DNA of 64,000 bases from Candidatus Zhuqueibacterota bacterium (lineage in GTDB: Bacteria > Zhuqueibacterota > Zhuqueibacteria > Residuimicrobiales > Oceaniaggregativiventaceae): assembly GCA_014728085.1 (NCBI GenBank), contig WJMF01000038.1, forward strand, positions 1 to 64,000, given 5' to 3'. The notes below the pieces were generated by a model. The model was not told where the DNA came from and searched no databases. It worked only from the letters and a program-made list of their open reading frames with translations. Position numbers and translations under genes: made by a program. Shown here piece after piece: positions 9,783 to 22,874 of the stretch (position 1 is its first letter; each line of letters begins with the position of its first letter).

Positions 9783-12700
9783 ATGGCCCAAACAAGAGTA
9801 TTATATATAGATGACGAGCAACAACTGAGAGCAAAATTTTCGAATTTACTCCGTCAAAAAGGTTATGTGGTACACACTGCAAAAACAGGGGAAAAAGGAA
9901 TAGAGCGCTTAAAAAATCGTGATATCGATGTCGTCTTTTGCGATCTCAATATGCCCGGCATGAATGGTATGGAGGTGCTCAGAAAAATCAAAAACATCGA
10001 TGAGGATGTGCCGGTCATCATCCTGACATCCCACGGTTCAATTTCAAGGGCGGTTGAGGCGATGAAACAGGGCGCATATCATTTCATTCTCAAGCCGTTC
10101 GAAATTGATGAAATCGAGGTAACACTTGAAAATGCGATTGAATCGCGCTCGCTAAAAAAACAAATCATCAACAAAGAAAATGACCTCCTGTCGATCCGGG
10201 AACAACATGCCGGAGAACTGGAAAGCCGGGTTCAGGCGCGCACTGAACGCCTGAAATATTCAAACCGTCAACTGTTGACCTTAAATGAGGTTGCAAACCA
10301 GTTTACCGGCATTTATGACACCAAAACCCTTTATCAATATGTACCGCAAATTCTCGTCCATAAATTCGAATACGACCGCGCTCTCTGTTTTGTCTATGAG
10401 GAAAACAAACTCAAACTTGAATCCTGGAATCTAAAAACCGCGCCTGCAGAGACACTAAAATCCGATAGTAAAGCCCTTTCCCGGGATCCGCTGAAACATC
10501 TGCCGCATCTGAAAAAAATTATCAAACAACCCCAAACAATCGTTAAAGAAAAGCTGCCACCGGCAACAGGGCCATCCACCAAAAGCCGTGCCGGATTTTT
10601 GATCGCCACCCCGATTATTATTCAGGGAAATCTGAATGGAATTATACAGGGTGAGCTCTATAAAAGTGGAGCCGTGAGAGATGATTCGGACATTGCCCGT
10701 TTTGAAATGTTTGCCAGAATGGTGGGACTGGCCCTCGACAATATCCTTGCTTACCAATCTCTGGAAGCCAAAGTAAACCGTAGAACCGAATCGTTAAAAC
10801 GGGCCAACAAAGAACTTGGAGATAAAGCCAGGCAACTTGAAAAAACCACCTATAATCTTGGAAGGGCAAATGTCGATATGCTTGCCGTCCAGGAAAAGCT
10901 GGAAGAAAAAAATATAGAGATGGAAAAGCTGTTGCGGCGTCTTTCGCAGAGCAAAGATGAGTTGCAAGCCATACTGGATACGACCCTGAACCTGATCGTT
11001 ATGGTCGATCTCAACGGCAATGTGACTGCACTCAATCGTCAGATCAAAGAATATTTTGACCTGGATCGCGATAAAGTTTTACAAAAACCGTTTCGTCAAT
11101 TTATCGGTCATATCAAGGACCAATTCGAGAATCCAAATCATTTTATTGCCCTGATTAACGAACTGGAAAAAGAGCTTGGCCGAAACAAAGGGCGCGCGCA
11201 AAGTGCAAACAGTTTTTATGAACATACCCTGCGCTTATGTAAACCGGTTCCCCGTTATTTGTCTATCTTTTCCCTGCCGGTTCTGGATACACAGCAGGAT
11301 GAAAAACTGGGTAGTGTATGGATGTTTTTTGACATGACCGAGCGCATCGAGGCGGAAAAAACGCTCTCTACCCGCCTGCGCTATGAAGAGGGACTTGCTG
11401 CCTGCTCTCAGGCATTGTTAAAATACGATGACCTCAGAATGGCGCTGGAAAATGCGTTACAGGCCCTGCTCGATTCCACGGATGTCAGCCGGGTCTATAT
11501 CTATGAAAATTTCAAAGAGGGTAAGCGGAGCCTTAAAATGAAACTGGCCGCCATGGCTGATGCCGAGGACGTTCAGCCCTATACGGACGAAAAGGATCTG
11601 AGCGGATTTTCATACAAACCGGATTTTATCCGCTGGCACCGTCTGCTCTCTTCCGGCAAGGCCATTTCCGGTCCGGTGCGCAATTTTCCCGAACGTGAGC
11701 AAAAAATGCTTTCATCACATCAGGCCAAATCCATGCTTATATTACCGATATTTACCGAAAATGAGTGGTATGGATATATCGGCTTTGATGATATTCTCAA
11801 GGAACGTCAGTGGGGAGAAGAAGATATTCGCCTTCTGAGAACGGCTGCAGAAATGATCGCCGGTGCCATAACCAGAAGAAACGCAGAAATCGCTTTGCAG
11901 GTAAGCGAAAAGCGTTTTCGTTCGCTGGTGGAAAATGCTCACGATATTATTTATTCCATGAATCCGGACGGTACTTTTTCTTATCTGTCTCCTCAATTTG
12001 AAGAATATACGGGGTACTCTCCCCAGAGTTTTATCGGCAAGACATTTGAAGAGCTGATACATCCCGACGACCTGGAAAAAGACCTTTTTTCACCTGCCAA
12101 AGCCGGCGGCCGGATTCGCGAATTGGAATACCGCATCAAACATAAAGACGGAAGTTGGCGTTGGTTCGTATCGCATTCGACCAAAATTTTGGATGAAAAC
12201 GGTCATATTATTGAAATTATCGGTATCGCGCACGATGTAACCGAAATCAAAAATGTACTCAGGGATTTAGAGGCGACCAATCGCGAACTTCGCGACACAC
12301 AAACACAGCTGGTGCAGAGCGAAAAGATGGCGTCCCTTGGAAACCTGGTTGCCGGAATTGCGCATGAAATCAATACACCTGTCGGCGCTATCAACAGCAT
12401 GCACAATACCCTAATCCGCGCAGTAGCCAAACTGCGAAATCATTTGGAAGAAAAATTCACAGAGGAATTTATCAAGGACCGTCAACTGGTGGCCACCTTA
12501 AAAATTATCCAGGACGCCAACCGCGTGATTCACACCGGAACCGACCGGGTCATCAATATGGTCAAGCGCCTGCGCAGCTTTGCGAGGCTCGATGAAGCCG
12601 AACTCAAAGATGCGGATATTCATGAAGGCATAGAAGATACCCTGGTTCTCATACACCATGAGATTAAACACAATATCAAAGTTGTTAAAAAATTCGGCAC

Positions 12701-13073
12701 CCTTCCCAAAATCGCCTGCTATCCCGGCCGCTTAAACCAGGTATTTCTTAATCTTCTGATCAACGCCAAACAGGCAATCAAGGGGAGCGGACGCATTACC
12801 ATCCAAACCTATACGAAAGAGGGCTATGTTCATATCGCCTTCAGGGACAATGGTGTTGGTATCGCGCCCGAACACCTGGATAAAATATTTGATCCCGGAT
12901 TCACCACAAAAGGAGTTGGTGTTGGTACCGGCCTCGGGTTATCGATCTGTTATCAAATTATCAGGGACCACCGCGGGAAAATACTGGTTGACAGTGTTAA
13001 GGGCAAAGGCACAACCTTTACCGTTGTAATTCCTATGGATCTGGACAAGCGTATACAGCAAGTTACTGAATAA
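9783..13073 (+). CDS. Hybrid sensor histidine kinase with N-terminal receiver domain
   Basis: A cytosolic protein of about 1096 residues. Order of domains: receiver (about 5-120, phospho-acceptor Asp54 in FCDLNMPG), coiled coil, GAF-like (about 165-320), long coiled coil, PAS (about 390-520), GAF (about 535-690), PAS/PAC (about 705-820), dimerisation helix with H-box GIAHEINTP (His861), and ATPase domain with NLLINAKQAI, DNGVGI and GTGLGLSI. No membrane segment is present. It should integrate soluble signals and phosphorylate a partner regulator; none is encoded next to it. The ATG at 9783 is preferred to a GTG five codons earlier. Its TAA overlaps the next ATG (TAATG), so it is translationally coupled to the outer-membrane barrel gene. 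Confidence 0.9.
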   Translation: MAQTRVLYIDDEQQLRAKFSNLLRQKGYVVHTAKTGEKGIERLKNRDIDVVFCDLNMPGMNGMEVLRKIKNIDEDVPVIILTSHGSISRAVEAMKQGAYHFILKPFEIDEIEVTLENAIESRSLKKQIINKENDLLSIREQHAGELESRVQARTERLKYSNRQLLTLNEVANQFTGIYDTKTLYQYVPQILVHKFEYDRALCFVYEENKLKLESWNLKTAPAETLKSDSKALSRDPLKHLPHLKKIIKQPQTIVKEKLPPATGPSTKSRAGFLIATPIIIQGNLNGIIQGELYKSGAVRDDSDIARFEMFARMVGLALDNILAYQSLEAKVNRRTESLKRANKELGDKARQLEKTTYNLGRANVDMLAVQEKLEEKNIEMEKLLRRLSQSKDELQAILDTTLNLIVMVDLNGNVTALNRQIKEYFDLDRDKVLQKPFRQFIGHIKDQFENPNHFIALINELEKELGRNKGRAQSANSFYEHTLRLCKPVPRYLSIFSLPVLDTQQDEKLGSVWMFFDMTERIEAEKTLSTRLRYEEGLAACSQALLKYDDLRMALENALQALLDSTDVSRVYIYENFKEGKRSLKMKLAAMADAEDVQPYTDEKDLSGFSYKPDFIRWHRLLSSGKAISGPVRNFPEREQKMLSSHQAKSMLILPIFTENEWYGYIGFDDILKERQWGEEDIRLLRTAAEMIAGAITRRNAEIALQVSEKRFRSLVENAHDIIYSMNPDGTFSYLSPQFEEYTGYSPQSFIGKTFEELIHPDDLEKDLFSPAKAGGRIRELEYRIKHKDGSWRWFVSHSTKILDENGHIIEIIGIAHDVTEIKNVLRDLEATNRELRDTQTQLVQSEKMASLGNLVAGIAHEINTPVGAINSMHNTLIRAVAKLRNHLEEKFTEEFIKDRQLVATLKIIQDANRVIHTGTDRVINMVKRLRSFARLDEAELKDADIHEGIEDTLVLIHHEIKHNIKVVKKFGTLPKIACYPGRLNQVFLNLLINAKQAIKGSGRITIQTYTKEGYVHIAFRDNGVGIAPEHLDKIFDPGFTTKGVGVGTGLGLSICYQIIRDHRGKILVDSVKGKGTTFTVVIPMDLDKRIQQVTE

Positions 13074-14500
13074 TGATATTGAAAAAATGTGTGTTTTGCC
13101 ACTGGCGCAAAATCTTGATAAATTTCTCAATAGCCCTCTTACTCTCATCCGCATACCTGCCGGCAGCAGAAAATGCGCTTCCATCCCCGGCAGTTGTTGA
13201 TAGTCTGACGAGAGCTTCGTTTTCTTTCGAACGGCATACACCCGACAGCGCCTACAAATATGTCCGCGGACTGGAGCGGCAGGCAAAACCCGGCTTCAAG
13301 TCGGTGAACAATGCGATAATGTTTCTACCCGGCCTGGTTATCGATGGCGTCCGTTCCGCCACAGCCTTTGGAATGCACCTGGTGAATGATCCGGAAATCA
13401 GGGCCCGTATCAATTCATTTGTAGAAAGCGAAAACAAAAGCTTTCGCTGGTATCCGGTAGCCGATATCACCTCCGATTACCGGCCAAGGATTGGAGCTGA
13501 TTTTTTCATCCCCCTGCACCTGGTTGATATGGCCTTCAACTGGAATTTTGCCGGACGGGAAAAGTATAAACTTGCCGGGAATATTTCATATCATTACAAA
13601 AATCAGCCTTATACCTGGCGTTGCACTTTATCCGGACTCTTTGAACATGACGATGACAGAAAATTTTACGGAATAGGGGTAACGCCGCGTAACGACCGAC
13701 GAAACGCCATATTACCCTCTGCTGCTGCAGACTATGGTATTTATAAAGAGAAAAGGAGGAAAATCCAGCTTGTTAGCAGTATTGGATTTCATTCACATCT
13801 CAGTCTCTCTTATAGCGCTCTTTTGCAAAAACGCACTCTGCGGAATGCACCCACGTCCGAAAATGCGATAGGAAACCTGTTTAACCTGGATAAAATGAAA
13901 GAATTCAAACATCCGGTGCAACCGTTTTATCATGAACTCAGTATTCGCCTGGATAGCCGCCGGCAGGAGCGCTATCTATCCAGTGGAATCAAATTCGAAA
14001 TCTATTATGGCCGCTCCAAAGGCATCGGACAGGATTCAAGCACTTTCAGCCGCTGCGGTTTTGATTTCATGATGAATATTCCAATTCTTGATCCGGATCG
14101 ATTGCTGACCCCCCGGTTGGTCTATAACCGGATAAAAAATAATTCTCTTCAGACTGCCATACCTTTTACAGAATATCCGCAACAACCTGTCTTTCGCGGT
14201 GTCTCAGGCCTTTATATGTTGCGTACAGACAATCATTCTTTTGTTCCCTCACTGGAATATCATTGGCCGCTAACCTATTATCTCGGTGCTCATTTGTTCA
14301 TCGATTATCTCCTGGTCAGCGACCAGCTGTCGCATTTATCCTGGACACGGGTTCCCTGGGCAATCGGACTCGGCGCTGATATTCATGCGAAAAACAAAGA
14401 GCTGGCAAGGGGGTATATCGCTGCCGGCTCGGAAGGTTTCCACCTGACCTTTACGATCGGACTGGATTCCGTTGTCAATAGCCGGTCGGCCTGGGAGTAA
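13073..14500 (+). CDS. Outer-membrane beta-barrel protein (Omp85/surface-antigen-like)
   Basis: A 475-residue secreted protein with an N-terminal signal sequence. The C-terminal two thirds alternate hydrophobic and polar residues with many aromatic strand ends, and motifs such as GIGVTPRND and VSGLYMLRTDN resemble the barrel half of Omp85-type surface antigens. No POTRA domains are visible and the usual C-terminal aromatic residue is absent (it ends in Trp-Glu). The start codon overlaps the stop of the hybrid kinase, and the lipoprotein gene follows after two bases, so three genes form one operon. Function unknown; secretion or insertion of a partner is conceivable but unproven. Confidence 0.7.
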   Translation: MILKKCVFCHWRKILINFSIALLLSSAYLPAAENALPSPAVVDSLTRASFSFERHTPDSAYKYVRGLERQAKPGFKSVNNAIMFLPGLVIDGVRSATAFGMHLVNDPEIRARINSFVESENKSFRWYPVADITSDYRPRIGADFFIPLHLVDMAFNWNFAGREKYKLAGNISYHYKNQPYTWRCTLSGLFEHDDDRKFYGIGVTPRNDRRNAILPSAAADYGIYKEKRRKIQLVSSIGFHSHLSLSYSALLQKRTLRNAPTSENAIGNLFNLDKMKEFKHPVQPFYHELSIRLDSRRQERYLSSGIKFEIYYGRSKGIGQDSSTFSRCGFDFMMNIPILDPDRLLTPRLVYNRIKNNSLQTAIPFTEYPQQPVFRGVSGLYMLRTDNHSFVPSLEYHWPLTYYLGAHLFIDYLLVSDQLSHLSWTRVPWAIGLGADIHAKNKELARGYIAAGSEGFHLTFTIGLDSVVNSRSAWE

Positions 14501-14502
14501 CA

Positions 14503-16074
14503 ATGCTGAAAAGTGCAACAACAACTTTGTCAGTATTACTGGCGGCAATGATACTGCTTTGGAATTGCGCTCCGACGCCGGCGACGTTTACAGATGGTGA
14601 CCCCGTATACCATCTGAACGACAAAAAACCGATTCCAATACCGAAAAATCCCCGCAGCGTCCGGTCCCTGCGGGCGGACAAGAACGCCAGAGACGTCAAT
14701 CGCCTGGACGATGTACCGGCATCGAGCTGGTACAGTCCCAGATTGGGGTATCAAAATATATCCCCTGCAGAGCTGGTAAACGGTCCCGCCGAGACTGGTT
14801 TGCCGGTGGTACCCATAACCATAATCGCGATCAAACATCACCGGCGTCACTCATCGCTTGTTGTCCGCGATAGCCGCGGTATTCAGTATCTGCTTAAATT
14901 CGCTCCTCATGATTTAAATGCCATGTTCACAACCACCTCATTTATCGTAAATCGCCTCTTTTGGAGCTTTGGTTATTTTGTACCGGAAGAGCATATTTTT
15001 CAATTCAGTCGCGGGGATTATAAAGTTGATATCCCAAATAAAGATAACATTAAAAACATTCGGGATTTGCTCGATACGAGTACAACGTCAAACCAGAAAC
15101 AATACCGATGCATTGCCAGTCGTTTTGTGCGCGGTTATCCCCTGGGTCCGGCCGCACAACAGGGGGTGCGTAAAGAGGATCCCAATGACTGGTTCCCGCA
15201 CCAGGACCGCCGGGTGTTGCGGGCGTTGCGCGTATTCGCTGCGTTTACCAATATGGCTGATATGGGTCCCCATCATACACTGGATGTCTATATGGGAAAA
15301 CCAGACCAGGGGCACATCAGACATTATCTCATTGATTTTGGCGATGCATTTGGAGTTATCGCATCAGGAAAAAATCGCGGCTGGGCTGGTTTTCATCACA
15401 TTTTTAGCCTGGCGGATATCCTGACCAATCTGGCAACTCTGGGATTCTATCGCCAGGAATGGGAAAAGAAAAGTAAAACACCTTGGAAATCCGTGGGCCC
15501 TTTTGAATCGACACTTTTCAACCCGGAAAAATGGAAAGAAATCTATCCCTACGCGCCGATTCGCAAAAGTCAACCTGCAGACAATTATTGGGCTGTCAAA
15601 ATTCTGGCCGGATTGACGGAGGCCCACATCTCTGCGCTGGTTCGGGCTGCCGGTTATATAAACAGTAAAGCGCGGGATTATATGATCCGCACTCTTGTTG
15701 AACGTCGGAAAAAATTGTTGCAATACCATTTCAACCAGGTCACCCCTCTCGAATATATCGATATGAAAGAGGATACCCTCTATCTAAAAGATATCTGCCG
15801 AGGTCTTTTTACAGAAAAAAAAACAGAGTATTACAGAATAAAATTTTATGATCAGAGGAACCGGCAAGTTCATCCGGCTACAACGCTGGGTTGTGACGAG
15901 TCGGTGGTAAAGATTGCGGCATTCTGCACCCTCATCGATAAAGCCAAAGGGTATCTCAGGCTGGAAATCAATAAACTGACCAAAACCCGGCCACCGGTAA
16001 CTCGTTTTCATTTTTCACGTCAAAAAAATGGCACCATAAAGCTCATCGGCGTGGTTCACGATAACCCTGTGTGA
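14503..16074 (+). CDS. Putative lipoprotein with an atypical kinase-like fold
   Basis: A 523-residue protein with a signal sequence ending LLWNC (Cys22), a likely lipidation site. Residues from about 115 onward show an order of motifs reminiscent of HipA/CotH/PI-kinase-type folds: a strand with Lys (YLLKFAP), a helix followed by GYFVPEEHIF, a loop NMADMGPHHTLDVY, and YLIDFGDAFG, which looks like a metal-binding DFG loop. The C-terminal 120 residues form a separate beta-rich domain. If the fold assignment is right this would be an extracytoplasmic kinase-like protein; that is inference from motif order only. It is the last gene after the hybrid kinase and barrel genes. Confidence 0.55.
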   Translation: MLKSATTTLSVLLAAMILLWNCAPTPATFTDGDPVYHLNDKKPIPIPKNPRSVRSLRADKNARDVNRLDDVPASSWYSPRLGYQNISPAELVNGPAETGLPVVPITIIAIKHHRRHSSLVVRDSRGIQYLLKFAPHDLNAMFTTTSFIVNRLFWSFGYFVPEEHIFQFSRGDYKVDIPNKDNIKNIRDLLDTSTTSNQKQYRCIASRFVRGYPLGPAAQQGVRKEDPNDWFPHQDRRVLRALRVFAAFTNMADMGPHHTLDVYMGKPDQGHIRHYLIDFGDAFGVIASGKNRGWAGFHHIFSLADILTNLATLGFYRQEWEKKSKTPWKSVGPFESTLFNPEKWKEIYPYAPIRKSQPADNYWAVKILAGLTEAHISALVRAAGYINSKARDYMIRTLVERRKKLLQYHFNQVTPLEYIDMKEDTLYLKDICRGLFTEKKTEYYRIKFYDQRNRQVHPATTLGCDESVVKIAAFCTLIDKAKGYLRLEINKLTKTRPPVTRFHFSRQKNGTIKLIGVVHDNPV

Positions 16075-16407: not shown

Positions 16408-17661
16408 ATCATCATCAAAAGAGGCAACCCTTTAAAAATTCTTCTGACGTTCATTTTTTTGCTTTTTTTCTCCGGTTGCGCCCAGCGCGGTCTGATCAGT
16501 GAAAAATCCGATAAAATCTACGACATACCCGATCTTTCAGCCACCATCGACCATAACCAAAACCCGGTTTTTCTCGTTTACGGCGACACCCAAACCGGCT
16601 GGCGACTGGCGGAAAAATTTATCTGGAGTAAAAATTGGCTAACCTGGAAAATGCTATGCTTTCCGTTTTATGAGCTATACTGGTTATCCAACGGCTTTAT
16701 CGGAACAATTAATTTTCTTCGCTATCAACCCGATTATGGCATCGAACAGCAGCGCCGGGTTCGCGATGCCATTCTGCAATATCATCGAGATAATGACCTG
16801 GATTTTATCATGCAACTCGGAGATAAAGTTGCTGACGGTCGTTATCCATCTCACTGGCAGCCGTTTTTAACGCTTAATCATATCGAAACCTCTCTGCTCT
16901 CCACACTCCCCTATTTTACGGTTCTGGGAAATCATGAAGTCACAAACGATACGGTTTACGGAAAACCGAATCATCGTACACTGTTCGATCAACCAGGATT
17001 TTATACCCTTGACTTTCCCGGCTTGCGCTTGATCGTGGTCAATTCCAACTTTATTCTGGACCAGGACGGCTTGTTTGATACGGAAAAACAAAATGCACTT
17101 TTCAAACAGTGGTTTATCAGCAATAATCCCGACACACCGGCCTGGTTGCAAAAGCAGCTCTCTAGCCATCATACCTTCAAAATTATTTTTATGCATCACC
17201 CCCTAGCCTCTTTCGGCAAGCATCATTCAAACTGGTATAACAAAGCCTACGGACAATCACTGCGACAAAAACGCCTGGCTCTGCTCAGATTATTCGACAA
17301 CCATGATGTTGATATTGTTTTCAGCGGTCACGAACATTACTACGCCCATAACCTGATTCGTACCGGCAATAGCAAAGACACTCTGCACCAGATCATTGCC
17401 TCGGCAGGGGGAGTACCACTACGAGATTTACCCGGCGAGCAAAAAATAGCATCGGCATGTAAAAGATACAAAGCCGATAATATTCATGTACGCGTTATGA
17501 AACAGGAAAAAAAATATCATTACTGTATCGTTAAGGTCGGAAATACCAACCTGACTGTAGACGTTTACGCTATTGATGACGATTCATCCGTATATCCTGT
17601 TGATAAAATTGTACTGAAAAACAAACAAGTTTTTCATTCACCTATATCGGAGCAAGAATGA
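16408..17661 (+). CDS. Calcineurin-like metallophosphoesterase lipoprotein, start codon not canonical
   Basis: A lipoprotein of about 415 residues with all metal-binding blocks of the calcineurin-like phosphoesterase fold: GDTQTG, LGDKVADG, GNHE, MHHPL and GHEHY. The signal peptide (KRGNPLKILLTFIF then LLFFSGC) extends upstream of the only in-frame ATG/GTG/TTG, a TTG at 16459 that would leave just six residues before the lipid Cys. The frame is open back to a TAA at 16378, and after a GAGAGG sequence come three successive ATC codons at 16408, 16411 and 16414; initiation at ATC, or a lost ATG, is the simplest reading. The stop overlaps the next start (ATGA). The substrate is unknown; nucleotides are attractive given the downstream carriers. 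Confidence 0.82.
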   Translation: MIIKRGNPLKILLTFIFLLFFSGCAQRGLISEKSDKIYDIPDLSATIDHNQNPVFLVYGDTQTGWRLAEKFIWSKNWLTWKMLCFPFYELYWLSNGFIGTINFLRYQPDYGIEQQRRVRDAILQYHRDNDLDFIMQLGDKVADGRYPSHWQPFLTLNHIETSLLSTLPYFTVLGNHEVTNDTVYGKPNHRTLFDQPGFYTLDFPGLRLIVVNSNFILDQDGLFDTEKQNALFKQWFISNNPDTPAWLQKQLSSHHTFKIIFMHHPLASFGKHHSNWYNKAYGQSLRQKRLALLRLFDNHDVDIVFSGHEHYYAHNLIRTGNSKDTLHQIIASAGGVPLRDLPGEQKIASACKRYKADNIHVRVMKQEKKYHYCIVKVGNTNLTVDVYAIDDDSSVYPVDKIVLKNKQVFHSPISEQE

Positions 17662-19013
17662 AAAAGAACAAGAGTATTCTCGATAAATTTTTAAATATTT
17701 TCACCGATGTGCGCGCCGGGGAGGGGATAAACGCATTACTGCTTTTCTTTAATCTTTTTATTATCCTGACTGCCTACTATATCATCAAACCGGTTCGGGA
17801 AGCATTGATTCTGTCGGGAAGCGGAGCCGAAGTGAAGAGCTATGCCGCCGCCGGACAGGCGATTCTATTGCTGGGATACGTTCCCCTCTATGCCTTGCTG
17901 GCCGGTACATTTCCCAGAAAGCGGCTGATTAATGTGGTCACCACCTTCTTTGCCCTCTGTCTGGGCGGTTTTTATTTCCTCGCCCTGATTAACAATTCAT
18001 CAGCGCTGACGCTGAATATCCCTCTGGATATTATTTTTTATTTATGGGTGGGTATCTTCAATATATCCGTTATTGCACAATTTTGGTCGTTCGCCAATGA
18101 CCTCTACACTCCGGAAGCGGGAAAACGCCTCTTTGTCATTGTCGCCTTTGGTGCATCGCTGGGTGCGGCCATGGGCAGCGGAATCACCACTCTTCTCATA
18201 GAACCTCTGGGTGTATATCAATTGTTGCTCCTGGCCGGTGCCCTGTTAATCGTCAGTCTGTTCATTACCAATATTGTCGATGCGCGACAAAAACAGCAGT
18301 TGCTGATGACAAATCACGAGCAAGTCGAGAAATTCTCAAAACCGCTGGATAAAAGCGGAGCCTTTCGCCTCGTCCTCAAGCATAAATATCTTCTGCTGAT
18401 CGCCTTGCTTATGCTGTTTATTAATTGGGTAAACACCACAGGGGAATATATTCTCGGCCGTATTGTAACCGAAACCGCAAAAGAGGCGGTCTCGATGGGC
18501 ACAGCCGGGGGACTAACAGTGGGTGAATATATCGGTCGTTTTTATGCGGTCTTTTTTAATATTGTCAACTGGACCGCAATTCTACTGCAACTATTTCTGG
18601 TTTCCCGCATCATAAAATATTTGGGAATTCGCATTGCGATTCTTATTTTACCCATAATTGCTCTGGGTGGCTATATCTTTATTGCGATCGTTCCCGTTTT
18701 GGCGATCATTCGTTGGATTAAAACAGCAGAAAACGCAACAGACTATTCGCTTCAAAACACCGTGCGAAATATTCTGTTTCTGCCGACCACAAGAGAAGAA
18801 AAATACAAAGCCAAACAGGCAATCGATACCTTCTTTGTCAGGGCAGGTGACGTGCTCTCGGCCGTGTTGGTATATGTCGGTACTGCTATACTGACTTTTG
18901 GCATCAAAGAATTCGCCCTGGTGAATACGATATTGGTATTCGTATTGCTGCTAATTTCATTCATCATCGGGAAAATGAACAAAAACCTGGTCAAGGTCGA
19001 TAAACCTATATGA
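17658..19013 (+). CDS. ATP/ADP translocase-like (NTT/AAA family) carrier
   Basis: A 451-residue membrane protein with about twelve helices. The opening DVRAGEGINALLLFF followed by YYIIKPVREALIL is the signature of bacterial proteins related to the nucleotide transporters of Rickettsiae, Chlamydiae and plastids (TC 2.A.12). FWSFANDLYTPEAGKRLF in the loop after helix 4 is also shared. Free-living bacteria carry divergent members whose substrates are unknown, so nucleotide transport is a family-level inference. It overlaps the phosphoesterase stop by four bases and the second carrier's start by four bases (ATGA both times), giving a tightly coupled operon. Confidence 0.82.
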   Translation: MKKNKSILDKFLNIFTDVRAGEGINALLLFFNLFIILTAYYIIKPVREALILSGSGAEVKSYAAAGQAILLLGYVPLYALLAGTFPRKRLINVVTTFFALCLGGFYFLALINNSSALTLNIPLDIIFYLWVGIFNISVIAQFWSFANDLYTPEAGKRLFVIVAFGASLGAAMGSGITTLLIEPLGVYQLLLLAGALLIVSLFITNIVDARQKQQLLMTNHEQVEKFSKPLDKSGAFRLVLKHKYLLLIALLMLFINWVNTTGEYILGRIVTETAKEAVSMGTAGGLTVGEYIGRFYAVFFNIVNWTAILLQLFLVSRIIKYLGIRIAILILPIIALGGYIFIAIVPVLAIIRWIKTAENATDYSLQNTVRNILFLPTTREEKYKAKQAIDTFFVRAGDVLSAVLVYVGTAILTFGIKEFALVNTILVFVLLLISFIIGKMNKNLVKVDKPI

Positions 19014-21814
19014 AAAATCTATTCAGAGAACTATTTGATATCAGAGAAGGTGAAGACCGGCGTGCAGCACTGATGTTCAGCTATATTTTTTTGGTTATTT
19101 GCTCGCTGCTTATCGTCAAACCGGTACGGAATTCTCTGTTCCTGACTCATATCGGCATAGAACAATTGCCGGTGGCTTTTATTCTCGTTGCCATTGTAGC
19201 GGCCCTGGTGTCCAATATCTATTCCAGACTATCGAAATCGATTCGGCTTGATCAGCTTATCATCAGCACCTTTTTCGCCTCCATCGTATTGCTTTTCTTT
19301 TTCCGCTATTTTTTGTATCTGAAATACCAACAGGACTGGTTTTATTATGCGCTTTATGTATGGGTGGCTATTTTCGGGGTCATTACCACCTCACAATTCT
19401 GGTTGCTGGCCAATTATGTTTTCAACGCCCGTGAAGCCAAACGCCTTTTTGGCCTTATTGGGGCTGGAGGAATTTCCGGTGGTATTTTTGGCGGTTACCT
19501 GACCAAATTTCTTGCACCGGTTGTGGGCACACATAATTTAATATTATTTTGCATCTTGTTTCTAAGCCTCTGCGCTCTGATTGCAGCACATATCTGGCAG
19601 CTCTGCGGCAAACAAAATTATTCCGAACGCATCAGACAACAACTGCGTCTGTCCCGTAAGGTCAGAGAAGATAATCCTTATAAACGCTTGTTTCAATCCA
19701 AACACTTTCTCTTTCTCGCTGCTCTGGTGGGAACCGGCGTATTGGTGGCCAATATTGTTGATTTCCAGTTCAGCGCCGTTGCCAGTAATATCATCAAAGA
19801 TGAGGACAAGCTTACCGCTTTTTTTGGATTCTGGCTCTCCAATCTCAGTATTCTCTCGCTTTTTATCCAACTCTTTCTAACCGCCCGCATTTTGAGCCGT
19901 TTCGGTATCACCACTTCCCTCTTCTTCCTGCCGGTAGGTATTTTAGCGGGAGCGATCGCGATCTTGTTTCAACCGGCATTGTGGTCCGCCATCCTGGTCA
20001 AAGTCAGCGATGGCAGTTTTAAACAGTCAATCAATAAAGCCGCACTCGAACTCCTGGTTGTCCCGCTTCCGCCGGACATCAAAAACCAGGGAAAAACCTT
20101 TATAGATGTATTCGTGGACAGCCTTGCAACCGGATTGGGCGGTGTTCTTTTGCTGATTTTTACGATCACATTGGGATTGAGTGTGCAGCAAATCAGTCTC
20201 TTTGTTATCGCCATGATCGTGTTCTGGTTTTATCTCATCGTGCGGGTGAAAAAAGAGTACATCAACTCGTTCCGGCTGGCTCTTGAAAAACGCTCTATCG
20301 ACCTCGATGAACAGACGATAAATATTAAAGATGCATCCGTCTATAACAGCCTGGTCAAATTGCTGGAAACGGGCAATGAGCGCAAAATACTCTACGTATT
20401 GCAATTGATAGAGAATATCCAATATGATAAATTTATTCCCTATTTGCGAAAGTTGCTCTCGCATCCGTCTGATGAAATCAAATTACAGGTGTTACAGCTG
20501 ATTAAAAACTATAGTTCGGAGGATTTTTCACCCTCTGTTAAAAAATTGTTGTTTCATAATAATTTCGACATTCAGGTCGCAGCGATGCGCTACCTTTATC
20601 ATCAACAACCCGATCCGGAATCTCTTAAAACCTACTTTGAATATAAAGAGATCTCTATCCGCACTGCTGCTCTCATGTGTGCGGCAATGGAAAACCGGGA
20701 TGACAAAGAATTCAGAAAAACAGGAAAATTCAAGGAAATTTTCGACGCCTACATAGAGACCGATAGCAACAGCATCAACGAACCAAGATTTCGCGCCCGC
20801 GTTGCTCAGGTCATCGGTATTGCCCGTGATGAAGAGTTGTACCCGTTTTTGAGAAACCTGCTCAGAGATCAAAACACCACGGTACTACGGGCAGCCATCA
20901 TTGCCGCCGGCCAGACCCGGAATCCTGTTTTTATCAAACTATTGATCAATCATCTCAACACCAAAAGAGTAAGGCGTTATGCCCGACACGCATTGGCAGC
21001 ATATGGTGAAACCATTATCGACCAACTCGAAAACTGTTTAAAAGAGAGCGATAAAGACCCCCGCATCCGGCAGGAGATTCCAAAAGTTTTGGCCCTTATC
21101 GGTACCCAGACCTCTGTTAACACGTTATTTACATACCTCGATTTGAATGACCTGAGAATACGCTATGAAATCATTCGGGCGCTTAACCGATTGCGCATCA
21201 ATTTTCCCATCCTGCGCTTTGATGCTTCACGAGTGAAAAAGAGAATTCTCCTGGAAACTGACCGCTACCTGAATACGCTCACCCTGCTGAGACTTCAGGA
21301 CCGCATTATCGGTACATACGAAAATCGCGATATAGGCGATAAGAACGTCAGGCAGGCCAGATATCTGCTCAACCGTGCCCTCGAAGAACGCCTGGAAGAT
21401 AATCTGGAGCGAATTTTCCGCCTTTTGGCTCTTGTTTATCCCGCCAAAGATATGCATAATGCTTATCAGGCCATCATCAGCAGCCAGAGCCACATTGGTG
21501 CCAATGCGATTGAATTTTTGGAAAATATCCTCGACCCGGATCTCAAAAAGCATATTATACCTATTGTCGACAGATTCCCGACATTGGAAAAAATTGATGA
21601 AAAAATCAACCGGAATCTGCATCAATCATTTGAATTTGAAGCCTTTAAACGGATTCTACAGTCCGATGACAACTGGCTCAAAGCCTGCGTCCTCTACCTC
21701 ATGGCGGAATCGCTGACCAGTGAGCCGGAATGGATTATCAGGGAGCTGACATTCGACCCGGATCCCATCGTGCAGGAAACCGCGCGGTTTGCTGTGAATA
21801 AAATTAAAAAATGA
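19010..21814 (+). CDS. NTT-like carrier fused to a HEAT-repeat domain
   Basis: A 934-residue protein. Residues 1 to about 410 are a second ATP/ADP-translocase-like carrier (DIREGEDRRAALMFSY, VKPVRNSLFL, and FNAREAKRLFGLIGAGG in the helix 4-5 loop). From about 430 to 790 the chain is a row of roughly 30-40-residue alpha-helical HEAT repeats, e.g. FIPYLRKLLSHPSDEIKLQV and FLRNLLRDQNTTVLRAAI, probably cytosolic and protein-binding. A helical tail follows. Homologues of this architecture often continue into a cyclic-nucleotide-binding domain; here that domain is a separate gene 30 bases downstream. Confidence 0.85.
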   Translation: MKNLFRELFDIREGEDRRAALMFSYIFLVICSLLIVKPVRNSLFLTHIGIEQLPVAFILVAIVAALVSNIYSRLSKSIRLDQLIISTFFASIVLLFFFRYFLYLKYQQDWFYYALYVWVAIFGVITTSQFWLLANYVFNAREAKRLFGLIGAGGISGGIFGGYLTKFLAPVVGTHNLILFCILFLSLCALIAAHIWQLCGKQNYSERIRQQLRLSRKVREDNPYKRLFQSKHFLFLAALVGTGVLVANIVDFQFSAVASNIIKDEDKLTAFFGFWLSNLSILSLFIQLFLTARILSRFGITTSLFFLPVGILAGAIAILFQPALWSAILVKVSDGSFKQSINKAALELLVVPLPPDIKNQGKTFIDVFVDSLATGLGGVLLLIFTITLGLSVQQISLFVIAMIVFWFYLIVRVKKEYINSFRLALEKRSIDLDEQTINIKDASVYNSLVKLLETGNERKILYVLQLIENIQYDKFIPYLRKLLSHPSDEIKLQVLQLIKNYSSEDFSPSVKKLLFHNNFDIQVAAMRYLYHQQPDPESLKTYFEYKEISIRTAALMCAAMENRDDKEFRKTGKFKEIFDAYIETDSNSINEPRFRARVAQVIGIARDEELYPFLRNLLRDQNTTVLRAAIIAAGQTRNPVFIKLLINHLNTKRVRRYARHALAAYGETIIDQLENCLKESDKDPRIRQEIPKVLALIGTQTSVNTLFTYLDLNDLRIRYEIIRALNRLRINFPILRFDASRVKKRILLETDRYLNTLTLLRLQDRIIGTYENRDIGDKNVRQARYLLNRALEERLEDNLERIFRLLALVYPAKDMHNAYQAIISSQSHIGANAIEFLENILDPDLKKHIIPIVDRFPTLEKIDEKINRNLHQSFEFEAFKRILQSDDNWLKACVLYLMAESLTSEPEWIIRELTFDPDPIVQETARFAVNKIKK

Positions 21815-21844
21815 ACAGCCGGATTGTTTCAAGAGGAAAAAATC

Positions 21845-22285
21845 ATGCTAACATCCATCGAAAAAGTACTCTTCTTACAGGATATTGATATTTTTGAAAA
21901 CACCGCAACCGAAGACCTCGCCTTTATCGCAGCGATAACAGAAGAGATTGAAGCCAAAGCGAATACGGTGCTCTATAAAGAAGAAGAAAAAGCCGATTCC
22001 ATGTATCTGGTTATCGAAGGATCAGTAAAGCTGCATCAAAAAGAAAGAGAGGTCATGACCGCCAAACCAAAGGACTTTTTCGGTACCTGGGCTTTGTTTG
22101 ATGATGAACCTCGCGTGGTCAGTGCGACAACACTGGAAGAATGCCGTCTGTTAAAAATCGACCGTGAAGAATTCTATGATCTTCTGGCAGACCATACCAA
22201 AATCACCCAGGGTGTTTTAAAAACCCTTTCCAAACGCCTGCGCAGCCTGCTGAACAAAGTCAGAGTTGATGTTGAATCAACCTGA
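21845..22285 (+). CDS. Cyclic-nucleotide-binding domain protein
   Basis: A 146-residue protein consisting of one cNMP-binding beta-roll and C-terminal helices. LVIEGSVKLHQ is the first conserved turn, DFFGTWALFDDEPRVVSATT corresponds to the phosphate-binding cassette region (the usual G-E-x-A-L is G-T-W-A-L, and the Arg after Pro is kept). There is no helix-turn-helix, so it is a sensor or regulatory subunit rather than a Crp-type repressor. ATG at 21845 follows AAGAGGAAAAAATC; an upstream TTG is rejected. The gene closes the phosphoesterase/carrier operon and may gate the HEAT-fused carrier, which is inference. Confidence 0.85.
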   Translation: MLTSIEKVLFLQDIDIFENTATEDLAFIAAITEEIEAKANTVLYKEEEKADSMYLVIEGSVKLHQKEREVMTAKPKDFFGTWALFDDEPRVVSATTLEECRLLKIDREEFYDLLADHTKITQGVLKTLSKRLRSLLNKVRVDVEST

Positions 22286-22327
22286 TTTGCATGTCTGCAG
22301 GCTCGCATTAAAATTTCTCTCTTGAGC

Positions 22328-22356
22328 TTGATAAAAAAGTTTATTATCTTTATAAA
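22328..22356 (+). promoter_or_regulatory. Sigma-70-like promoter of the response regulator gene
   Basis: TTGATA (22328-22333), 17 bases, TATAAA (22351-22356), about 36 bases before the ATG at 22392. Confidence 0.6.
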
Positions 22357-22391
22357 ATAATGTCCTGTTGAGCTTAATTCAGGAGTGCTTC

Positions 22392-22874
22392 ATGTCAGGT
22401 GAACAATCACCTTCGGATATTGTTATCGTTGATGACGAAGAAATGGTATTAACCAGCCTCAGTTCTTTTCTGAATCTGGAGACCGATTATAACGTTCATA
22501 CCTTTCTATCCGCCAAAAAAGCGCTTGACTATATCAAAAAAAACAATGTCGATTTGGTGATCTCCGACTATTTAATGCCGGAAATGGACGGTATTACGTT
22601 CCTGGCCAAAGTACGGGACTGCAAGCCGGAAATACCCCGCATCATTCTAACAGGGTACGCGGATAAAGAGAATGCCATCAAAGCCATTAATGAAGTGGGC
22701 CTGTTCCAGTATATAGAGAAACCCTGGGATAATGATGATCTGCTCATCATCCTCAGAAATGGCCTTGAAAAACAAAAATTGATGAAAAAATTGCAGGAAA
22801 AAATCAGCGAAATCAATTCCGCCTACTCTGAGCTCAAGAGTATTCAGGACGAAATTGTGAAAACCTTTATCTAA
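22392..22874 (+). CDS. Stand-alone response regulator with C-terminal coiled coil
   Basis: A 160-residue protein. Residues 8-125 form a receiver domain: acidic pair VDDEE near 14-17, phospho-acceptor Asp59 in LVISDYLMPEMDG, Thr in LTGYAD and Lys in IEKPWDND. The last 35 residues are a predicted coiled coil without DNA-binding or enzymatic domain. It probably signals through protein contact. The ATG at 22392 follows CAGGAG; the longer TTG frame is rejected. It has its own promoter and could be a partner of the hybrid kinase at 9783, which lacks an adjacent regulator; this is inference. Confidence 0.88.
   Translation: MSGEQSPSDIVIVDDEEMVLTSLSSFLNLETDYNVHTFLSAKKALDYIKKNNVDLVISDYLMPEMDGITFLAKVRDCKPEIPRIILTGYADKENAIKAINEVGLFQYIEKPWDNDDLLIILRNGLEKQKLMKKLQEKISEINSAYSELKSIQDEIVKTFI

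Follow-up and report, generated by a model that had tools for sequence, protein, structure and literature searches.

Question raised by the locus

Can an exported lipoprotein that is encoded directly behind an outer-membrane barrel act as a kinase, and does the sensor kinase encoded in front of both genes belong to the same system? These questions are raised by a gene region of Candidatus Zhuqueibacterota bacterium located in the window, i.e. the whole stretch of 64,000 nucleotides that was analysed (assembly GCA_014728085.1, contig WJMF01000038.1, positions 1 to 64,000). The forward strand of this region carries the gene of a hybrid histidine kinase (9783..13073; ATG at 9783, stop codon at 13071-13073), to which Pfam assigns the domain order REC-GAF-PAS-GAF-PAS-HisKA-HATPase, the barrel gene (13073..14500) and the gene of a lipoprotein of 523 amino acids (14503..16074). 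The ATG of the barrel gene at 13073 overlaps the stop codon of the kinase gene by one base (TAATG), and the ATG of the lipoprotein gene at 14503 lies two bases past the barrel stop codon, which ends at 14500; the lipoprotein stop codon ends at 16074. These coordinates bear out the gene coupling described in an initial annotation, which had been made from the sequence alone and had correctly named the hybrid sensor kinase.

The interpretation given there, a cytosolic sensor tied to an outer-membrane pair with a possible envelope kinase, was partly supported. According to conservation and structure prediction, the lipoprotein probably represents a new, widespread and so far unnamed kinase-fold family that is paired with Omp85-type barrels and has transporters of the NTT family as recurrent neighbours. 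The sensor kinase turned out to be a local, non-conserved partner, and both the downstream partners at 16459-22874 and the nature of the barrel as an Omp85 type without POTRA domains had been overlooked.

Predicted fold of the lipoprotein

The AlphaFold model of the lipoprotein, calculated with 80 aligned sequences as input, reached a predicted local distance difference test (pLDDT) value of 94.0 and a predicted template modelling (pTM) score of 0.92. It comprises a lipobox cysteine (Cys22) that follows a predicted helix at residues 2-20, a bilobal kinase domain at about residues 84-413 and a C-terminal immunoglobulin (Ig)-like sandwich at about residues 412-520. VIA-align, applied to Foldseek candidates, placed CtkA at the top (Z 15.3, 234 aligned residues, 3.8 A), followed by DrFam20C1 (Z 13.7), Fam20A (12.8), Golgi casein kinase (12.6), PI4KII-alpha (12.2), actin-fragmin kinase (12.0), MavQ (11.1) and HipT (10.7); PI3K-like kinases then ranked at Z of about 8. 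Residues 415-510 resembled Ig-like sandwiches with Z of about 7. The structure prediction recommended in the initial annotation, with HipA, CotH and Fam20 as candidate folds, thus yielded a kinase-related fold nearest to CtkA, Fam20, PI4KII-alpha and HipT; CotH was not among the matches listed by VIA-align, which does not exclude a CotH fold.

Sequence searches against Pfam, NCBIfam and the PDB assigned no significant family to the lipoprotein of the window. A Pfam scan of 29 family members likewise gave no significant match to HipA, Fam20, CotH or PI3/PI4 kinases, the best kinase-type matches being HipA_C (E 0.13) and HipA_2 (E 0.2), each in one member.

Conservation of the active-site positions

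A scan of genome contigs with an alignment as query confirmed 246 relatives, whereas a single-protein query of the same contigs yielded no confirmed relative. The locus counts given below lean to closer relatives because the best 80 loci of the 246 were used. Four alignments were generated: A1 with 29 of 30 lipoprotein cluster members (omitting L038, in which a barrel end and the lipoprotein share one continuous frame), A2 with 26 of 29 barrels, A3 with 79 of 85 lipoproteins plus the window copy (80 rows), and A4 with 61 barrels (380-520 amino acids, >120 bits) plus the window copy.

Active-site equivalences were derived from the order of the residues, their motifs and the predicted secondary structure and not from superposed coordinates; PMC7948968 supplied no useful numbering of Fam20 catalytic residues. 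The motifs YLLKF (residues 129-133), NMADMGPHHT (250-259) and YLIDFGDAFG (275-284), which the initial annotation had taken as kinase-like, occur in this order in the lipoprotein, and their conservation exceeds chance. Lys132 at the beta-3 lysine position (forward-strand codon 14896..14898) and Asp278 at the position of the Asp-Phe-Gly aspartate (15334..15336) are present in 80 of 80 rows of A3, Asp253 at the position of the catalytic Asp (15259..15261) in 78, and all three residues are found in the window copy. Lys132 closes a predicted strand at 128-132, Asp253 and residue 258 just precede the strand 259-264, and Asp278 follows the strand 270-276. The kinase-like reading of the lipoprotein is accordingly backed by both the predicted fold and the conservation pattern. 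With respect to the metal-binding position, five residues past the catalytic Asp, the family has Asn (79 of 80 rows) and the window copy alone deviates with His258 (15274..15276), so that the activity of this copy is doubtful.

None of the 72 A3 rows outside the clade of the window has lost a residue of the active-site set, and the kinase-fold family outside this clade looks active as judged from these residues. Moreover, R223, D226, D229, R237, R240 and H274 are each invariant (80 of 80 rows). We know of no classical kinases with invariant polar positions of the R223, D226, D229, R237 and R240 type. The invariance of this polar stretch between the hinge and the catalytic loop suggests one conserved substrate of the family rather than many.

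Pairing with an Omp85-type barrel without POTRA domains

The barrel of the window was predicted by AlphaFold with 16 strands (pLDDT 83.9), and TamA and BamA were its best Foldseek matches (E 5e-10). The model lacks POTRA domains, since residues 30-73 are of low confidence and helices at 75-117 precede the first strand; POTRA families were also absent among the Pfam matches of 26 barrel members. PF01103 (Omp85) was matched by 21 of the 26 barrel relatives scanned but not by the window copy, for which neither Pfam nor NCBIfam gave a family. The barrel profile matches BamA/TamA chains, and R375 and G376 of the RG motif are nearly invariant, as expected of a 16-strand barrel of the BamA/TamA type.

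Adjacency was counted with trimmed open reading frame starts. The barrel gene is located directly upstream and on the same strand in 79 of 85 lipoprotein relatives (76 of 80 loci), with a median gap of 2 bp. The six misses comprise two contig ends (L063, L120), a fused frame (L071), the second copies of two tandem pairs (L072, L116) and one real case (L089). A histidine kinase gene, in contrast, lies directly upstream of just 7 of 86 evaluable barrels, which correspond to five distinct organisms since L035 and L061 as well as L039 and L078 represent the same organism counted twice. Because of these frequencies the barrel and the lipoprotein are regarded as the unit and the sensor kinase as a local addition, and the hybrid sensor kinase was ruled out as a core component. 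The check named in the initial annotation, conservation of the pair without the kinase, thus had a positive outcome, and joint conservation of all three genes was not observed.

In L116 (9767-13079) and L072 (8355-11548), a single barrel gene is followed by tandem copies of the kinase-fold gene. The barrel-lipoprotein fusion in L071 (1236-3968; one frame, 910 amino acids) was not used: it probably reflects a deletion or an assembly fault, because the frame contains neither the end of the barrel nor the start of the lipoprotein. In the sister genomes L036 (12122-14524) and L058 (5594-7996; by clustering only), a gene of the penicillin-amidase family is located directly upstream of the barrel.

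Linkage to NTT transporters and the downstream gene block

A further block of forward-strand genes starts about 0.4 kb past the lipoprotein gene of the window. It encodes a calcineurin-like metallophosphoesterase of the PF00149 family with the lipobox LLFFSGC (16459..17661), an NTT/TLC transporter of the ATP/ADP carrier family (17658..19013), an NTT/TLC transporter fused to HEAT repeats (19010..21814), a cyclic-nucleotide-binding-domain protein (21824..22285; PF00027), which is a recurrent neighbour, and a single-domain response regulator (22368..22874; PF00072), which is recurrent at the block end. Both transporters matched PF03219 above the cut-off and were also detected by profile comparison, the first one against solved ADP,ATP carriers with E 5e-38; a literature search for NTT structures gave no paper.

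An NTT gene was found within 5 kb of the lipoprotein gene in 39 of the 80 rows, and in 28 of the 46 rows whose flanks extend over 5 kb or more on both sides. On the family tree, the NTT-neighbour label requires at least 21 changes compared with a mean of 27.3 after shuffling, and values as low were obtained in 5 of 500 shuffles. Within the phylum of the window, the placement of NTT genes was analysed with 33 of 34 lipoprotein places (the 42-position fragment G027:C36:57547 was omitted), all 45 NTT places and rounded genome sizes; an NTT gene lies within 5 kb at 15 of the 33 lipoprotein places, whereas 0.18 would be expected under random placement. NTT genes are carried by 15 of 16 lipoprotein genomes of this phylum, as opposed to 7 of 66 others.

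The ordered block consisting of barrel, lipoprotein, optional metallophosphoesterase, NTT, cyclic-nucleotide-binding protein and response regulator is common to L061, L066, L078, L096, L107, L112, L119 and L130; in L066 a weak metallophosphoesterase match is located after the response regulator. The PF00149 and PAP2 families occur in 15 and 10 of 79 loci, respectively, and genes for a Na/Pi cotransporter and PhoU are found near the kinase-fold and NTT genes in L042, L050 and L051. The metallophosphoesterase of the window shows a clear signal and lipobox, yet no in-frame ATG, GTG or TTG is present between the previous stop codon and the lipobox.

Proposed function and alternative explanations

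We propose, with a probability of roughly one half, that the lipoprotein is an exported, ATP-using kinase that operates on an Omp85 platform and is perhaps fed with ATP by NTT carriers. It would belong to a still unnamed family of atypical kinases that are secreted and often lipid-anchored in the envelope. The lipoprotein would work with its own POTRA-less barrel, and the barrel would hold the lipoprotein at the outer membrane or carry the lipoprotein or its product through. Outside the cytoplasm, the kinase would bind ATP and phosphorylate a conserved substrate that is either small or bound to the envelope; inner-membrane NTT carriers encoded nearby would feed the periplasm with ATP, with ADP in exchange, and neighbouring phosphatases and phosphate carriers would complete the phosphate cycle. 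The kinase fold, the active-site set, the export signal, the Omp85 pairing and the NTT linkage are supported by prediction or conservation; enzymatic activity, a substrate, the NTT direction and a physical contact between lipoprotein and barrel are inferred. The genes for the kinase-fold protein, the Omp85 barrel and, often, the NTT carrier suggest that many poorly studied bacteria may phosphorylate something outside the cytoplasm. More tentatively, and as a version that we hold to be possible though doubtful, didermal bacteria might possess a dedicated outer-envelope phosphorylation system in which the NTT exports ATP and the Omp85-coupled kinase modifies an envelope lipid, glycan or protein.

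Several observations weigh against the proposed kinase system. Foldseek alone gave weak and mixed results with low TM-scores, and mTOR together with three MBP-monobody fusions made up its four matches with E <= 0.001. We read the monobody fusions as matches to the C-terminal Ig-like domain and mTOR as a distant kinase match, and the kinase assignment was based on the VIA-align Z-scores and the active-site conservation and not on Foldseek alone. The lipobox column contains Cys in 45 of 80 rows and no Cys in the other 35, so that lipid anchoring is not universal in the family. Active-site loss affects 3 of 8 window-clade rows in A3 as opposed to none of the 72 others (Fisher 7e-4), and 4 of 11 distinct organisms of this clade once the G-only sequences are added; the clade may thus be drifting toward pseudokinases or altered metal use. 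An NTT gene within 5 kb is missing in 18 of the 46 rows with adequate flanks, and the genomes compared for the presence of NTT genes are related, so that the Fisher test returns too small, i.e. optimistic, a p-value. In addition, the NTTs characterised so far import or exchange their substrates in parasites and plastids (PMC5381601); for free-living bacteria, the same paper states the function as unknown.

All deviating active sites belong to the window clade, namely N258H of the window copy, D253N (L062, on the same contig as L036), D253G (second copy of L066) and D278E (L038). These substitutions would suit a pseudokinase or scaffold, in which the lipoprotein is a structural Omp85 partner in outer-membrane assembly or export and its ATP chemistry is vestigial. 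The near-obligatory and tight pairing fits such a role as well, as does the frequent occurrence of lipoproteins as partners of Omp85 barrels (PMC4104836). A scaffold is nevertheless unlikely in view of the complete active-site set in all 72 rows outside the clade. Alternatively, the locus might serve the scavenging of nucleotides or organophosphates: the barrel and an ATP-binding, non-phosphorylating lipoprotein would capture external nucleotides, the metallophosphoesterase or PAP2 proteins would trim them, and the NTT and Na/Pi carriers would provide import. This matches the uptake or exchange function of characterised NTTs (PMC5381601) and the recurrence of phosphatases, a Na/Pi cotransporter and PhoU nearby, and a role in binding would likewise preserve the Lys and Asp residues. 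However, 78 of 80 rows retain Asp253 at the catalytic position, which goes beyond what binding calls for, and the low frequencies of PF00149 and PAP2 genes also render scavenging quite unlikely. The Omp85 barrels characterised to date serve in assembly or translocation and are not known as nutrient porins, which argues in the same direction.

Some kinase-fold proteins, such as SelO and SidJ, use ATP for other transfers. The invariant polar residues between the hinge and the catalytic loop might therefore belong to an active enzyme with a different ATP-dependent chemistry, e.g. AMPylation, but nothing positive for such chemistry was seen in this family and we consider it improbable.

Comparison with known systems

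The kinase-fold family resembles the atypical kinases HipA/CtkA, Fam20, PI4KII and actin-fragmin kinase in its predicted fold (Z 10.7-15.3) and in the order Lys, Asp-x4-Asn and Asp-Phe-Gly. It differs from them by the lack of a significant Pfam kinase match, by its export, by the C-terminal Ig-like domain and by its own invariant loop motif. The Fam20 kinases of the animal secretory pathway share the fold (Z 12.3-13.7) and an extracytoplasmic location, which is predicted for the lipoprotein; the latter is, however, bacterial, often lipid-anchored and paired with a barrel, and a Fam20 match in Pfam was obtained for none of 29 members. If didermal bacteria do possess a dedicated outer-envelope phosphorylation system, it would parallel the Fam20 secretory pathway and bring along an ATP supply of its own. 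ATP is normally thought to be scarce outside the bacterial cytoplasm, and an active family would imply widespread ATP-dependent phosphorylation in this location as well as a concrete role for NTT/ATP-carrier homologues of free-living bacteria, while POTRA-less Omp85 barrels would gain a defined partner.

The barrel of the window corresponds to the 'noNterm' Omp85 subfamily, as described in the available text of PMC4104836, in being of the Omp85 type without POTRA, and the PF00149 protein that recurs beside such pairs recalls the 'Metallo' (PF00149) subfamily of the same source. In contrast to both subfamilies, the enzyme partner is here a separate kinase-fold protein; the word 'kinase' is absent from the main text of that paper. 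Operons with NTT-HEAT and cyclic-nucleotide-binding-domain genes have been described as being of unknown function in PMC5381601, and the NTT-HEAT and cyclic-nucleotide-binding genes of the window show the same arrangement. The block of the window differs in being tied to the outer-membrane pair of kinase-fold protein and Omp85 barrel, and the main text of PMC5381601 contains no mention of kinase, outer membrane, periplasm or export. No prior description of the kinase-fold/Omp85 pair was found by title and abstract, in a search that had preprints outside its scope and covered few subscription papers.

Distribution of the family

The kinase-fold lipoprotein was detected in 15 of 82 genomes of the window's phylum by search and in 16 of 82 with the profile; the genome of the window contains a single copy. 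Among the best 80 loci, relatives were assigned to KSB1/Calditrichota, Acidobacteria, Myxococcales/Polyangiaceae, Gemmatimonadetes, Zixibacteria, Krumholzibacteria, Eisenbacteria, Omnitrophica, Fibrobacteria and Bacteroidetes, along with a few doubtful bins. The barrel/lipoprotein pair is also carried by L098, labelled as a Haloarculaceae archaeon, and L133, labelled as Arcobacter, which are probably misbinned contigs.

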